Shown here piece by piece: positions 12,008 through 17,879 of a stretch of DNA of 18,075 bases. The translations under genes and the position numbers were made by a program. How positions within the stretch are numbered: position 1 is the stretch's first letter; the number at the start of each line of letters is the position of its first letter. Under the pieces are notes generated by a model. The model was not told where the DNA came from. It saw nothing but the letters and a program-made list of their open reading frames with translations, and made no database searches. The DNA comes from Campylobacteraceae bacterium (lineage in GTDB: Bacteria > Campylobacterota > Campylobacteria > Campylobacterales > Campylobacteraceae), in NCBI GenBank assembly GCA_031256525.1, contig JAIRQK010000141.1:1-18075 (forward strand). Direction: 5' to 3'.

Positions 12008-13807
12008 ATGATTAGAAATATAGCTGTAATTGCTCACGTAGACCATGGAAAAACTACATTAGTTGATGAACTACTAAAACAATCTGGTACTTTTGCTGAG
12101 CATCAAACTACGACTGAGAGAATGATGGATAGTAATGATATTGAAAAAGAGCGTGGAATTACTATTTTGTCAAAAAATACTTCCATAACCTATAAAGATT
12201 GTAAAATTAATATTATAGATACCCCTGGTCACGCTGATTTTGGAGGGGAAGTTGAGCGAGTACTTAAAATGGTTGATGGAGTGTTACTTTTAGTAGATGC
12301 TCAAGAGGGCGTTATGCCTCAAACCAAATTTGTTGTTAAAAAAGCTCTGAATTTAGGTCTTAAACCAATTGTTGTAATTAACAAGATAGACAAACCAGCA
12401 GGCGATCCAGAGAGAGTTATAAATGAGATATTTGACCTATTTGTAGCACTTGATGCAAACGAAGAGCAGCTTGATTTTCCAGTTGTTTATGCGGCTGCTC
12501 GAGATGGATATGCAAAATTAAATTTAGAAGATGAAAACAGAAATTTAGAACCGCTTTTTGAGATGATAGTAAAACATGTTCCAAGTCCAAGCGGAAGCGA
12601 TGCAAATCCAGCACAGATACAAGTTTTTACACTTGATTATGACAATTATGTTGGAAAAATAGGAATCGCAAGAGTTTTTAATGGAACAGTGAAAAAAAAT
12701 CAGACAATTTTACTTGTTAAAGCAAGTGGCGAGAGAATAAACGGAAGAGTTAGTAAGTTAATCGGCTTTAAAGGCTTAGAAAGACACGATATTGAAGAGG
12801 CTAATTCCGGTGATATTATAGCTGTTGCGGGATTTGATGCACTTGATGTTGGCGATAGTTTAGTTGATCCAAACAACCCTATGCCACTTGACCCACTTCA
12901 TATTGAAGAGCCAACACTTTCAGTCGTTTTTTCTGTAAATGATTCGCCTTTAGCTGGGTTAGAAGGTAAATTTGTAACCTCAAACAAAATTGCTGAAAGA
13001 CTTGAAAACGAAGTTAAAACAAATATTGCTATGAGATATGAAAACATAGGCGAAGGAAAATTTAAAGTTTCAGGTCGTGGTGAACTTCAGATAACAATTT
13101 TAGCTGAAAATATGCGTCGTGAAAAATTTGAATTTGCTCTTGGACGTCCTGAAGTTATCACAAAAATAGAAAATGGCATAAAATTGGAACCATTTGAGCA
13201 TTTAGTTGTTGATGTTCCTGATGATTTTACCGGTATAGTTATAGAAAAATTGGGAAAAAGAAAGGCTGAGATGACAACCATGAATCCAACAGGTGATGGT
13301 CAAACAAGAATAGAGTTTGAAATTCCAGCTCGTGGACTTATAGGATTTAGAAGCCAATTTTTAACCGATACTAAAGGTGAAGGCGTTATGAACCACTCGT
13401 TTTTAGAGTTTCGTCCATTTAGCGGAAGCGTAGAACATCGCTCAAATGGAGCGTTGGTCTCTATGGAAAATGGCGTAGCACTTGGATACTCTCTTTTTAA
13501 TTTACAAGAAAGAGGAGTTTTATTTATAGAGCCTCAAACTAAAGTCTATGTTGGAATGGTTATAGGAGAGCATTCTCGTCCAAATGATTTAGATGTAAAT
13601 CCTATCAAGGGAAAACAACTAACGAATGTAAGAGCTTCAGGAAGCGATGATGCAATTAAACTTATTCCTCCAAGAAAATTGAACTTAGAACGTGCATTGG
13701 AGTGGATAGATGATGATGAAATAGTCGAAATTACACCACAAAATATTCGCGTTAGAAAAAGATATCTTGATCCAACGCAAAGAAAGAGATTGTCCAAAAA
13801 AGATTAA
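12008..13807 (+). CDS. typA: Ribosome-associated GTPase TypA/BipA
   Basis: Translational GTPase of the EF-G/LepA superfamily that binds the 70S ribosome and helps assembly and growth under stress. GTP-binding motifs: HVDHGKTT (10-17), ERGITI (48-53), DTPGH (71-75), NKID (125-128). The middle holds domain II and an EF-G-like domain III ([14 protein letters not shown]), and the C-terminal part, including [11 protein letters not shown] and [12 protein letters not shown], is specific to TypA. The 599-aa length is standard. The ribosome binding site AGGAG lies about 12 bases before the ATG, a little far. Stand-alone gene with its own upstream promoter region. Confidence 0.97.
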
Positions 13808-13819
13808 CTACAAATAGGC

Positions 13820-13858
13820 AGATTTATGACAACTGCGAAGTGCTGTTGTCATAAATCT
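13820..13858. repeat. Perfect 14-bp inverted repeat after typA
   Basis: AGATTTATGACAAC is followed by its exact reverse complement, with an 11-base spacer that can itself form two more pairs. It starts 12 bp after the typA stop, where a terminator is expected, but no run of T follows. It could be a Rho-independent-like hairpin of weak type, an mRNA 3'-end stabiliser or a binding site. Confidence 0.6.
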
Positions 13859-13921
13859 CTATCCATAAATTATCTAACTAAAATAAAAAGTAAACAATAT
13901 ATAAACATTATAATTAAGCAT

Positions 13922-13935
13922 ATTTTAGATACAAT
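13922..13935 (+). promoter_or_regulatory. Promoter of the first DUF4878 lipoprotein gene
   Basis: ATTTTAGATACAAT, with TACAAT (13930-13935) as the -10 box. The same 14 bases recur before the second lipoprotein gene at 14552-14565, again followed by a T8 run and a purine-rich ribosome binding site, so the upstream region was copied together with the gene. Confidence 0.6.
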
Positions 13936-13964
13936 TCATTTTAATATTTTTTTTGAGGGATATT

Positions 13965-14369
13965 ATGAAAAAATTTTTAGTTTTAGTGTTTTCACTATCG
14001 GTGTTTTTTGGGTTTAGTGGTTGTGATAACTCTTCGAGTGATCCAGAAAAAATTGCAGTCTCTTTTTTTCAAAATTGGTTCGATGGTCAAATTGATTTGG
14101 CTATGGGAACACTCTATTTTAATGTATCAGATAGCGAAAAAGCTGAACTTGTAGAAAATAGAGCAAAAAGTAAAATTGCAGAGATTGCAGAACATTTTGA
14201 AAAAGACAATAAAGATCCTATGGTAGTCTCTAAAGGCGTTAAATATTCAGATGATGAAAGCAGAGCTACGGTTGAATTGGAAATGTCATCAAAAGATGAA
14301 GTAAAAACGGAAATTGTTATTGTTGATCTTGTAAAAGTAAACAAAGAGTGGAAAATATCCTATCGTTAA
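13965..14369 (+). CDS. DUF4878-like lipoprotein, first of three paralogues
   Basis: A 134-aa lipoprotein. The start is the ATG at 13965, set by GAGGG six bases upstream; a TTG twelve bases earlier lies in that ribosome binding site and is unlikely. Residues 1-19 are the signal peptide and C20 the lipidated cysteine (FSGC). The mature part starts with SSDPEKIAVSFFQNWFDGQIDLA and ends with LVKVNKEWKISYR, the layout of DUF4878 / NTF2-like fold proteins: a helical pair and then a curved sheet. The residue after Cys is Asp, unlike Gly in the two paralogues; in enterobacteria Asp at +2 keeps lipoproteins in the inner membrane. Function unknown. A decayed peptidase fragment follows directly. Confidence 0.85.
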   Translation: MKKFLVLVFSLSVFFGFSGCDNSSSDPEKIAVSFFQNWFDGQIDLAMGTLYFNVSDSEKAELVENRAKSKIAEIAEHFEKDNKDPMVVSKGVKYSDDESRATVELEMSSKDEVKTEIVIVDLVKVNKEWKISYR

Positions 14370-14456
14370 TTTTAACAAAGACCAATATCGTTTCTATTTA
14401 TTATTTCGTGTTCATATGTAGACTAAGCCAAGTTTTTAGATAGACTCGGCTTAAAA
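14348..14456 (+). pseudogene. Remnant of the 5' end of a YiiX-like peptidase gene
   Basis: This stretch aligns with the start of the intact peptidase gene at 15461-15571 over its whole length with a net loss of two bases. The best part, 14404-14456 against 15519-15571, matches at 44 of 53 bases by eye. In that frame it reads SCSYVD, stop, AKFLDRLGLK against SCSYANQAEFLDKLGVK: CAA has become TAA. The start codon is GTG rather than ATG and the two-base loss shifts the frame. The similarity ends at about 14456. It lies directly after the first lipoprotein gene, in the same relation as the intact peptidase gene to the third one. Confidence 0.8.
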
Positions 14457-14551
14457 CTACTTTTAGAACTTTAATCATTATAAATTCATTTGTTGGTATC
14501 GTTGAAGCATTAAGAGTTGATGATTAATTTGTTGCATATTTACTTAAGTGA

Positions 14552-14565
14552 ATTTTAGATACAAT
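14552..14565 (+). promoter_or_regulatory. Promoter of the second DUF4878 lipoprotein gene
   Basis: An exact copy of the ATTTTAGATACAAT found before the first lipoprotein gene, with -10 TACAAT at 14560-14565. A short CTCGA/TCGAG inverted repeat (14570-14588) lies in the leader just before the ribosome binding site and might modulate translation, but the stem is only five pairs. Confidence 0.6.
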
Positions 14566-14598
14566 CTACCTCGATATTTTTTTTCGAGAGGAGTATAT

Positions 14599-14991
14599 AT
14601 GAAAAAATTTTTAGTTTTAGTGTTTTCACTATCGTTGTTTTTAGGGTTAAATGGTTGTGGCAATTCTGCAAATGACCCAGAAAAGGTTGCGATCTCTTTC
14701 TTTCAAAATTTAGCTAATGACAAAGTTGATTTGGCTATAGAGTTGCTTGATTTTAGTGAACTAAAAGATGATGAAGCCAAAATGGCAAAGGACAAAATGA
14801 GATACATTTTTTCAGGAGCTGCACAGGAGCTTAAAAAAGAGGGCAAAGATCTTAAAAAAGTAGTATCAAAAGGCGTTAAATATTCAGATGACAAAAAAAA
14901 GGCTACAGTTACACTGGCAATCTCAGAAGATGAAACAGAAGATGTTGAACTTGTAAAAGTAAACAAAGAGTGGAAAATCGTACTACGATAG
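14599..14991 (+). CDS. DUF4878-like lipoprotein, second of three paralogues
   Basis: A 130-aa lipoprotein with signal peptide 1-19 and lipobox LNGC (C20). I chose the ATG at 14599 because GAGAGGAG stands just upstream and the lipoprotein signal begins there; the 17 extra residues of the longer frame have no support. The first 31 codons differ from those of the third paralogue only at six synonymous positions, whereas the middle of the protein has diverged strongly. The end, LVKVNKEWKIVLR, is again close to the first paralogue. The central region is Lys/Asp-rich with a VSKGVKYSDDKKKATVTL strand pair typical of the NTF2-like sheet. Envelope protein of unknown role with its own promoter. Confidence 0.85.
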   Translation: MKKFLVLVFSLSLFLGLNGCGNSANDPEKVAISFFQNLANDKVDLAIELLDFSELKDDEAKMAKDKMRYIFSGAAQELKKEGKDLKKVVSKGVKYSDDKKKATVTLAISEDETEDVELVKVNKEWKIVLR

Positions 14992-15040
14992 TTTATTGGC
15001 GCTATTAAATTATAGTAAGGCTGTATGTTTGTTTAGATAT

Positions 15041-15054
15041 GGTCTTGCTATGAT
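15041..15054 (+). promoter_or_regulatory. Promoter of the third lipoprotein-peptidase pair
   Basis: TTGCTATGATAAT gives a TATGAT -10 (15049-15054) with extended upstream bases. It differs from the repeated promoter of the other two copies. The ribosome binding site TAGGAGGAG follows before the ATG at 15078. Confidence 0.5.
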
Positions 15055-15077
15055 AATGTTTTTTAGGAGGAGTATAT

Positions 15078-15488
15078 ATGAAAAAATTTTTAGTTTTAGT
15101 GTTTTCGCTATCGTTGTTTTTAGGGCTAAATGGTTGTGGCAACTCTGCAAATGACCCAGAAAAAGTCGCACTCTCTTTTTTTCAAAACGTATTTAATGGA
15201 AAAACTAATGTGGCTTTAGTCACTATAGATACGAGTGGATTGGAAAGCAGAAGAGTTAAGGAGATAAGAGACAATATTGAATATAGAATAAAAAGCTCTA
15301 AAGAAGATGGCATTAAAGATTTCAAGATAGTCTCCAAAGGTGTTACATATAATTCAAATAAAGATGAAGCTACGGTCAAGATAGAAACATCGTTTAAAAG
15401 AAGCAATGAAGACACAAAAACAAGAAATATGGATATCAACCTTGTAAAAGTAAAAGGAAAATGGAAAATATCAAATCGTTACTTTTAA
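15078..15488 (+). CDS. DUF4878-like lipoprotein, third of three paralogues
   Basis: A 136-aa lipoprotein with lipobox LNGC (C20) and a very strong AGGAGGAG ribosome binding site. The signal peptide and first mature residues, through NDPEKVA, are identical to the second paralogue. The middle (residues about 37-115) is diverged and rich in Arg/Lys/Ser, and the end reads INLVKVKGKWKISNRYF, the family's closing strand. Its last 28 bp overlap the start of the peptidase gene, so lipoprotein and peptidase are almost certainly co-translated. This suggests that the lipoprotein serves as partner, inhibitor or localisation factor of the peptidase, which is inference. Confidence 0.85.
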   Translation: MKKFLVLVFSLSLFLGLNGCGNSANDPEKVALSFFQNVFNGKTNVALVTIDTSGLESRRVKEIRDNIEYRIKSSKEDGIKDFKIVSKGVTYNSNKDEATVKIETSFKRSNEDTKTRNMDINLVKVKGKWKISNRYF

Positions 15489-16051
15489 CTAAAAAACTAC
15501 TATTTTTACTCTTTTTTGTTTCGTGTTCGTATGCAAATCAAGCCGAGTTTTTAGACAAACTCGGCGTAAAATCCGGATATATGATATTTAGAGATGGAAC
15601 GGAACTAATAAGCGATGTCGTAACGAGTGCCGATGATAGCGAATACTCACATGTTGGAATGCTCTATAATGATCAGGGACTTTGGAGAGTTGTTCACGCT
15701 ACACCATCAGAAAAAAAGAATCAGAAAGATGGTGTTGTGGTCGATGACTTTGAGTTTTTTATAGATAAAAATCGCTCCAAAAAATATGCCATTTACGAAG
15801 TTATCGCAAATGAAAATGAATATGAAAAGTCAGTAAAAAACACACTTAGTCAAATTGGCAGAGAGTTTCACTATGATGAAAAAAAAGGAATATATTGCAC
15901 ACTCCTTTTATATAGGGCTTGGCAAACAGCTGGAGTTGAATTAGATGTGAAGTTTAAAAAAGTAGATTTTCTGATTTTAAAAGGGGAGTATGTTTTTCTA
16001 AAGGGATTTATGTCATCGCCGCGTTTAAAACTTGTGTATAAAAGCGATTAA
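15461..16051 (+). CDS. Exported YiiX/YebB-like NlpC/P60 cysteine peptidase
   Basis: A 196-aa protein of the permuted papain-like NlpC/P60 group (YiiX/YebB-like). Residues 1-25 form a signal peptide ending near SYA-NQ; a lipobox-like FVSC at 19-22 is an alternative. GYMIFRDG starts the domain, H64 in YSHVGM is the expected catalytic His and C146 in YCTLLLYRAW the nucleophile, in the permuted His-before-Cys order. Members of the superfamily cut peptidoglycan peptides or amide/thioester-like bonds; the substrate here is unknown. The ATG lies inside the third lipoprotein gene with a crowded ribosome binding site (GGA two bases away), so translation probably depends on the upstream gene. Its stop shares TTAA with the stop of the converging gene. 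Confidence 0.85.
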   Translation: MENIKSLLLTKKLLFLLFFVSCSYANQAEFLDKLGVKSGYMIFRDGTELISDVVTSADDSEYSHVGMLYNDQGLWRVVHATPSEKKNQKDGVVVDDFEFFIDKNRSKKYAIYEVIANENEYEKSVKNTLSQIGREFHYDEKKGIYCTLLLYRAWQTAGVELDVKFKKVDFLILKGEYVFLKGFMSSPRLKLVYKSD

Positions 16052-16470
16052 CTCTCGCATATAAAGAGTTTAGTTTCGATATCGTACAGCTCATATCTTA
16101 TATTTTTAAACTTTTCTGCCTCTTTCGTATCATAAAGTTTTAGTGCCTCTTCCAACACCCTCGCACTCTCTTGTGCTCTTTTTAAACTTGCTATTTGTAG
16201 AGAAATTAGACTATCTCTTGAAGCCTCGCTTTTTGTGGTGGATTTTAGTACATCATTTCTAATGTTGCGGTTTCGTAAAAGTGTAATGTATGGCTCAACT
16301 CTGGCTTTATGACGCAACTCTTTTAAAGCCTTAGCAAAAGTTGCATCATCAAAGCAATATCTTCTAATATCTTCAACAACCCTAATGCCCTCTCTTAGTC
16401 GGTTTAGGTTAGCATCAAGCAGACGAAGTATCGAACTTGGAAGCTCCAAGTCCGAAGATTGTGTATTCAA
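16048..16470 (-). CDS. Stand-alone ThiD2-like (ThiE-associated) domain protein
   Basis: The 140-aa protein matches the N-terminal domain that precedes thiamine-phosphate synthase (ThiE) in, for example, cyanobacterial fusions, called the ThiD2 family and linked to phosphorylation of the hydroxymethylpyrimidine moiety. The hallmark segment LLDANLNRLREGIRVVED (17-34) recurs in weaker form as LQIASLKRAQESARVLEE (91-108), each followed by an LRH/IRY helix (52-54, 124-126). This shows two helical half-domains. No ThiE barrel follows, so the domain stands alone here. The TTG start lies three bases after the stop of the upstream gene; GAGAGAT serves as a poor ribosome binding site, suggesting coupling. 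The biochemical assignment is by family only. Confidence 0.75.
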   Translation of the reverse strand: MNTQSSDLELPSSILRLLDANLNRLREGIRVVEDIRRYCFDDATFAKALKELRHKARVEPYITLLRNRNIRNDVLKSTTKSEASRDSLISLQIASLKRAQESARVLEEALKLYDTKEAEKFKNIRYELYDIETKLFICES

Positions 16471-17305: not shown

Positions 17306-17375
17306 AATGTATCTTAATTTTTTTGAAAAGATTAGGAGGATATAATTAGCAGATATGTATGTAAGAGGAAAGGCA

Positions 17376-17879
17376 ATGAGAAATTTTATTGTTTCTATTG
17401 TAATACTATTTGTGTTAATTGTTATGATGGGTTGCGGTACAAAGTCATCATATATTCAAACATCTGGTACGAAAATTGTTAATGTTGCAGAGGGCTTTAC
17501 GGTTGGTCGAGTTGAGGACCAATCTATCTTCTATTTTGGTCCGCATGATAGTGATGCTTTTATTATTGATGAAACCATGAAAGCCGAACTTGAAGCCCAG
17601 CTTGTTAAATATAAATTGATCGGAAATGGTTATAAAATTGATGTGAACATATTAGATTATTCTCCGGGTAATGCTTTTGCGAGATGGATATTGCCGGGAT
17701 TAGGAGCTACGCGTCTTGCTGTTGAGGCTTTGATTAAGGATAAAGAGGGTGTTGTACTCGCTAAGATACCAGTTAATCGTCATATATCAGCAGGTGGTGC
17801 TTTTACGATTGGAGCATACAAACGTATCTTTACAGATGTTGCCCAAGAGATAGTGGATGTTATAAAAAAACAAAAATAG
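17376..17879 (+). CDS. Lipoprotein resembling DUF4410
   Basis: A 167-aa lipoprotein: MRNFIVSIVILFVLIVMMGC is a full lipoprotein signal with Cys at 20. I chose the ATG at 17376, which has GAGGAAAGG at proper distance; the ATG at 17355 has AGGAGG fifteen bases away and would add seven charged residues before the signal. The mature protein alternates strand and helix, with GNAFARWILPGLGATRLAVEALIKDKEG in the middle and GGAFTIGAYKRIFTDVAQEIVDVI at the end, which resembles DUF4410-type lipoproteins. Function unknown. Single gene with its own promoter and terminator. Confidence 0.8.
   Translation: MRNFIVSIVILFVLIVMMGCGTKSSYIQTSGTKIVNVAEGFTVGRVEDQSIFYFGPHDSDAFIIDETMKAELEAQLVKYKLIGNGYKIDVNILDYSPGNAFARWILPGLGATRLAVEALIKDKEGVVLAKIPVNRHISAGGAFTIGAYKRIFTDVAQEIVDVIKKQK

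Follow-up and report, generated by a model that had tools for sequence, protein, structure and literature searches.

The 18,075-nucleotide contig analysed here (the window; JAIRQK010000141.1 of assembly GCA_031256525.1, from a Campylobacteraceae bacterium) carries on its plus strand three intact lipoprotein genes followed by one intact gene for a YiiX-like permuted papain-like enzyme (Peptidase_C92, PF05708; 15461..16051, 196 aa), and behind the first lipoprotein gene the opening 110 bases of that enzyme gene recur as a dead copy (14348..14456). This fossil is a true remnant, a truncated duplicate of the start of the enzyme gene. The lipoprotein genes, A (13965..14369, 134 aa), B (14599..14991, 130 aa) and C (15078..15488, 136 aa), encode NTF2-like, DUF4878-like proteins, and in the wider family a lipoprotein gene of this kind and the enzyme gene are, judged from sequence, a tightly coupled and conserved pair. 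As a full account, truncated duplication combined with a partnership between lipoprotein and enzyme has a probability somewhat above one half, roughly 0.55. Taken alone, the fossil is an unremarkable trace of local duplication; it directs attention to the conserved pair, and the pair merits experiment.

The fossil and the gene it came from

The initial annotation had proposed that the bases from 14348 to 14456 align with the first 110 of the YiiX-like gene, and the similarity proves significant at the nucleotide level. Outside the overlap with lipoprotein gene A, 14377-14456 matches 15492-15571 without gaps at 62 of 80 positions; with match 2 and mismatch -3 the score is 70, the best of 2000 dinucleotide shuffles reached 39, and 0/2000 were as good. 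The count of 44 matches in 53 given for the best part is correct for 14404-14456 against 15519-15571. With the overlap with the 3′ end of A included there are 110 columns, one 2-base gap and 87/108 identical bases (21 differences, 19%). A blastn search with 14320-14600 of the window's own genome (a bin of 996,579 bases in 183 contigs, 67% complete, in which the window is contig C32) gives just one strong hit for the fossil part, at the start of the enzyme gene (79%, E 8.6e-25); the query's other strong hit is the 3′ end of lipoprotein gene B (36 bases, 97%, E 7.5e-11). A dispersed repeat was considered and rejected, since no other strong copy was found in this incomplete genome; a weak match on contig C112 is a common leader block ahead of another gene. 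Scans of genome_contigs and viral_contigs found no relative.

The reading frame of the fossil is broken, and protein-level constraint is not evident in its sequence. It opens with GTG (14348-14350) and reads, in two separate frames, VENILSLIL and then RPISFLFIISCSYVD, a stop and AKFLDRLGLK, the corresponding intact enzyme peptide being MENIKSLLLTKKLLFLLFFVSCSYANQAEFLDKLGVK. The in-frame stop on which the initial annotation had remarked is TAA at 14424-14426. Of the two other defects held responsible for killing the gene, the missing ATG is not disabling by itself, GTG being a usual bacterial start and also the first possible start at the equivalent place in the enzyme gene of a relative, G050; the supposed two-base deletion is visible as a 2-base gap after 14376, though it could instead be a gain in the intact gene. 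The differences fall on the three codon positions as 9/35, 6/37 and 6/36, with no third-position excess and so no codon-position sign that the fossil spent time under protein-level selection, in what is with 108 bases a small sample.

The fossil ends abruptly at 14456. Its final 30 columns are identical at 26, after which similarity drops to background. The rest of the enzyme gene was not found in 14457-14560 (1745/2000 shuffles as good) or in 14457-14540 (987/1000), and DNA from before lipoprotein gene A (13808-13910) was not found in 14457-14540 either (357/1000). A search for the duplication junction finds pre-A DNA recurring only from 14541 on, as the leader of B (44 columns, 0/1000 shuffles as good); the corresponding leader block of A lies at 13911..13954 on the plus strand, contains TTTTAGATACAAT and matches 14541-14584 before B at 77% (again 0/1000). 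In the gap behind B no enzyme remnant was found (842/2000 shuffles as good). Because the high identity falls so abruptly, and no further enzyme-gene or pre-A DNA was found in 14457-14540, the end of the fossil looks like a breakpoint and not like gradual decay.

The lipoprotein-enzyme pair in the family

The ancestral two-gene unit postulated in the initial annotation is real as far as the genomes of relatives tell, on evidence independent of the fossil. A profile built from 14 enzymes was searched over 153 genomes of the family and has matches in 24, with no further genome of the window's genus among them. Four of these (G019, G025, G036 and G056, all of genus g11) were set aside because their enzymes belong to a distant C92 subfamily, and the loci fetched from them showed no lipoprotein. 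Among the other 20 an NTF2-like lipoprotein gene lies upstream of the enzyme gene on the same strand in 17 (G000, G005, G016, G026, G040, G050, G060, G070, G074, G080, G088, G304, G371, G399, G420, G445 and G449). In G060 there is one further gene between the two (L045:4396-4929), for a secreted-looking protein of 177 aa that ends in a GEWK motif like the lipoproteins. G045 has a 3′ enzyme scrap, with the lipoprotein absent there. The lipoprotein counts used only matches with E <= 1e-13, many of the 64 matched genomes having nothing beyond short signal-peptide matches. Some of the proteins behind the lipoprotein profile, A4, had been picked for standing beside the enzyme gene; the pairs in G074, G040, G050, G088 and G017 had been found earlier with profile A1, which contains no such enzyme-adjacent protein from relatives. 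A description of the pairing of lipoprotein and YiiX-like enzyme was not found in the literature searched on DUF4878, YiiX and Campylobacter.

In the window the final 28 bases of lipoprotein gene C overlap the enzyme gene, the overlap in G050 is 18 bases, and seven more loci have gaps of <=20 bases by first possible start codons. Since the enzyme start in the window and in G050 is buried within the Lys-Trp-Lys codons at the lipoprotein end, translational coupling of the two is suggested. The window cluster has three lipoprotein genes to one intact enzyme gene, and two or three lipoproteins per enzyme are seen in G000, G005, G080 and G371: there are two in G005 and its near relative G080, where the first copy is cut by the contig end, and three in G371, two of them incomplete. 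None of the 24 family genomes matched by the enzyme profile showed a second enzyme gene, the paired matches in G371 and G399 being pieces of one gene. The enzyme frame of G399 (L129:3854-4681) is open, with an in-frame insert of degenerate repeats between its His and Cys parts. Another assembly (a 41,842-base contig) seems to carry lipoprotein B, in a set numbered P0004-P0006, together with a C-like protein without its N-terminus and an extra paralogue, P0006, that ends in RYF as does lipoprotein C. As lipoprotein A is listed solely from the window contig, and B, the C-like protein and P0006 seemingly from this other assembly, the content of the lipoprotein array may vary between strains.

The enzyme narrowly passes the Peptidase_C92 (YaeF-YiiX) profile, with 27.6 bits against a cut-off of 27, and falls far short as a YiiX equivalog (NCBIfam NF007458; 37.2 bits against the 216 needed). 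His64, His79 and Cys146 are invariant across 14 aligned sequences; the putative catalytic His precedes the Cys, which is the permuted order, and the fold is that of YiiX (match to 2if6_A, E 4.7e-9, TM 0.65 and 0.70). The lipoproteins are of the NTF2-like kind of 3k7c by fold and by sequence profile. None reaches the DUF4878 cut-off (PF12870, 24.1 bits), B scoring 20.1 and C 13.7 with no row for A, and no DUF3828 match was found for any of the three at E 0.1. An IseA-like inhibitor was considered and rejected, its Pfam matches (E 0.048-0.05) falling short of the cut-off; IseA is not among the 50 fold-comparison matches listed, which excludes nothing.

Origin of the truncated copy

Since 13911-14456 is homologous to the leader of B and to the C unit, a block duplication is shown. 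The block, with its leader, its lipoprotein gene and no less than the opening 110 bases of the enzyme gene, was copied side by side, the rest of the enzyme gene being missing behind A most likely because the breakpoint lay inside that gene. The copied piece then drifted, as its stop, its frame break and the absence of a codon-position bias show, and the lipoprotein copies stayed intact, giving three NTF2-like lipoproteins per enzyme. Of the tandem duplication of a whole unit that had been proposed initially, the duplication stands, but with the abrupt end and the lack of a third-position excess, a duplication that took along just the start of the enzyme gene is at least as good an account as one with a complete second enzyme.

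Early loss of a full copy is nevertheless a close rival. It would have the whole unit duplicated in tandem and both enzymes at work for a while, after which the upstream enzyme gene degenerated and its final 480 bases disappeared, the lipoprotein beside it being retained. This is possible, if less probable: the two-gene unit is conserved in the family, its enzyme genes have been broken repeatedly (G371, G304, G088 and G045) and the fossil keeps the GTG start and the overlap geometry of a working gene, but the last 480 bases leave no trace, the third-position excess is lacking and none of the 24 matched genomes has a second enzyme gene. It is for the abrupt end and the missing codon-position signal that a breakpoint inside the enzyme gene is ranked slightly above full duplication with early loss.

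The idea that an enzyme is selectively lost with its lipoprotein kept meets mixed cases among the relatives. In G371 the enzyme gene is frameshifted and one lipoprotein next to it is intact (two further lipoprotein copies are incomplete, and a sequencing error is possible), the one case that would favour a lipoprotein retained without a working enzyme; against it, the lipoprotein gene is damaged along with the enzyme gene in G088 and G304, and G045 is without the lipoprotein. A second fossil in the 1-kb gap between lipoprotein genes of G371 was considered and rejected, the gap carrying another open frame and the enzyme match being unconvincing. In the window lipoprotein A is not the partner deprived of its enzyme that it had been taken for, as an intact enzyme gene lies 1.1 kb downstream in the same cluster. 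A rate argument for selection on A is not decisive: it has 0 disabling changes in 402 bases against 2 in 108 for the fossil, with P ~0.0006 at the point estimate and 0.41 at the lower 95% rate.

The lipoprotein genes themselves are unevenly diverged. Codons 1-15 are near-identical among them (93-98%), and their middles have diverged widely (A-C, codons 46-75, 36-56% identity). Codons 1-45 show fewer third-position differences than codons 46-90 (8/45 against 24/45 for B-C, p 0.0008; p 0.03 for A-B and 0.047 for A-C), a 36-base block near the 3′ end is common to A and B at 97%, and the fossil, at 19% difference, groups with the conserved gene ends. P0006 has nearly the same signal peptide and a diverged mature part. 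The dN/dS values of the whole genes are 0.51-0.54. Slow third positions at the ends are not what positive selection alone would give; the alternatives are exchange of the middles, homogenisation of the ends, or constraint on the DNA of the ends. A recombination mosaic would have A, B and C as old paralogues with ends homogenised by gene conversion, a tract from the end of C over the enzyme start having later made the fossil. The slow third positions of the 5′ halves, the shared 36-base block and P0006 all speak for it. Against it, conversion requires homology on both sides of the tract and nothing matches past 14456, and the slowness of the 5′ ends could also come from constraint close to translation starts; the mosaic is doubtful.

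Several observations weigh against truncated duplication with partnership as the full account. The middles of the lipoprotein genes are diverged far more than the fossil is, so that A and C may predate the fossil, or reshuffling may have affected them. A full second enzyme gene that died early would leave an identical trace, and a codon-position test needs more than 108 bases to be firm, quite apart from the weak constraint on a signal-peptide region. The contact between lipoprotein and enzyme is a prediction from sequence. The two genes stand next to each other but diverge in G017, and G007 has them at unlinked places. Furthermore, 9 of the 27 family genomes with a lipoprotein match at E <= 1e-13 give no enzyme match (G022, G039, G059, G064, G087, G254, G314, G333 and G400), so that such lipoproteins also exist without the enzyme; these lone lipoproteins may be other DUF4878-like paralogues, which are numerous in G007 and G017, and no enzyme remnant was found near a lone lipoprotein in the nine fetched loci (E <= 0.01). 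Extra DUF4878-like lipoprotein genes stand grouped and without the enzyme in G007 (L147:4203-8412) and G017 (L134:445-3452), next to what reads by eye as an anaerobic-reductase-like operon; their signal peptides are almost the same and their mature parts have diverged.

Immunity or inhibition by the lipoprotein is a hypothesis by analogy, with Tai3 as precedent. In a wide form of it the family would have an undescribed envelope system of Campylobacteraceae, in which a YiiX-like lipid-cutting enzyme is checked by the NTF2-like lipoprotein translated just before it, arrays serve as spare or orphan immunity with mature domains that diversify and signal peptides that stay fixed, and the fossil marks array growth; so much together is unlikely. 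Improbable too is the narrower proposal that A and B are diverged immunity lipoproteins against the enzyme variants of rival strains and that C guards against the cell's own enzyme. The lipoprotein gene does come first and overlap the enzyme gene, mature domains are diverged with nearly constant signal peptides, arrays recur in G000, G005, G080 and G371, and Tai3, as portrayed in part of PMC13082787, is an immunity protein. On the other side, inspection by eye of the frames next to the enzyme showed no delivery module (no family search was made), no match to the single marker PF05936 (T6SS_VasE) was found in the 67% of the genome at hand, and dN/dS of A, B and C stays below 1.

Very improbable is a role at the RNA level, in which the enzyme-gene hairpin kept by the fossil (14424-14453) would serve the lipoprotein A message as its 3′ end or as an attenuator: 14415-14475 folds strongly (-15 kcal/mol, 0/200 shuffles as good), as does the same hairpin in the intact gene (15542-15565; -13.7, 2/200), but neutral simulations retain an equal fold in 624/5000, or in a borderline 236/5000 (4.7%) when the actual changes are relocated, so that retention is not clearly beyond neutral expectation, no T run follows the hairpin and no Rfam match at gathering score was found. 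As a terminator the hairpin was rejected for want of that T run on the fossil side; a terminator scan of 13750-16100 gives two terminator-like sites, and these are minus-strand sites within the intact enzyme gene.

The cluster sits to the right of a typA-like gene, identified from its translation. In the 1.5 kb behind typA in 11 of 41 genomes, none of the same genus, blastn found no match to the window's cluster. Directly behind the typA-like gene of the window is a strong palindrome (13820-13858) with 17-base arms, 94% complementary, and a 5-base loop. Elsewhere in the window are three consecutive genes for Sel1-repeat proteins on the plus strand (244-2792) and another lipoprotein-like gene (17355-17879) with a DUF4410 match (E 4e-11).

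Proposed working and comparison with known systems

In the favoured account of truncated duplication and partnership, the lipoprotein would be made first and the enzyme translated by coupling from the start within the last lipoprotein codons. The envelope-anchored lipoprotein would bind the exported YiiX-like enzyme and then restrain or place it, the enzyme perhaps cleaving amide or ester bonds to fatty acyl groups in the lipids or lipoproteins of the envelope, and additional lipoprotein copies may increase the dose or broaden the range of control. If the lipoprotein does control the enzyme, there would be a partner for the bacterial YiiX-like enzymes, which PMC7387801 describes as poorly understood in function, and a testable role for DUF4878 lipoproteins.

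The likeness of the window enzyme to YiiX of E. coli (2if6) and to BcPPNE (3kw0), as presented in sections of PMC3142127, is one of fold and His-before-Cys order, identity to them being only 16-19%. BcPPNE has His49 and Glu64, 15 apart, and the window enzyme has His64 and His79 at that spacing, a correspondence of spacing and not of superposed structures. Enzymes of the NlpC/P60 superfamily that are related to the permuted kind and act on lipoproteins or lipids are known from two further systems. LnsA/LnsB of S. aureus, in the relevant passage of PMC7387801, differs from the window pair in its partner, LnsB being CAAX-protease-like, and Tox-Act1 of Salmonella differs, in the portion of PMC12994826 devoted to it, in being a secreted effector with a membrane-associated immunity protein.

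Among known proteins close to the lipoprotein is Cj0202c of Campylobacter jejuni (3k7c), likewise an NTF2-like DUF4878 protein, whose structure is solved and whose family still goes by the name 'domain of unknown function' in the text of PMC3924330 at this point. A near-identical protein, with few residues different, is encoded in G088 before the C92 enzyme gene. The case differs from the window in that both genes of G088 (L047:4501-5448), as their sequence reads, change frame near their starts, and the gene listed as integral membrane protein Cj0201c may be the N-terminal piece of the enzyme.

Tai3, a periplasmic DUF3828 protein, is the immunity protein of the amidase Tae3 in type VI secretion, according to the relevant part of PMC13082787. 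The window differs from Tae3-Tai3 in that its lipoproteins have no DUF3828 match, its enzyme is of the permuted YiiX type and the type VI marker was not found, and inhibition here is hypothetical. Also among the systems closest to the window pair are the DUF3828 genes in operon with genes for NlpC/P60 enzymes, where an exported or lipid-anchored NTF2-like protein is likewise encoded with an enzyme of that superfamily. The genomic-context section of PMC3924330 ties the enzyme association to DUF3828 only, while the window combines a DUF4878-like NTF2-like protein with an enzyme of the circularly permuted YiiX type. For the DUF3828-NlpC/P60 operons that paper proposes a regulatory role.
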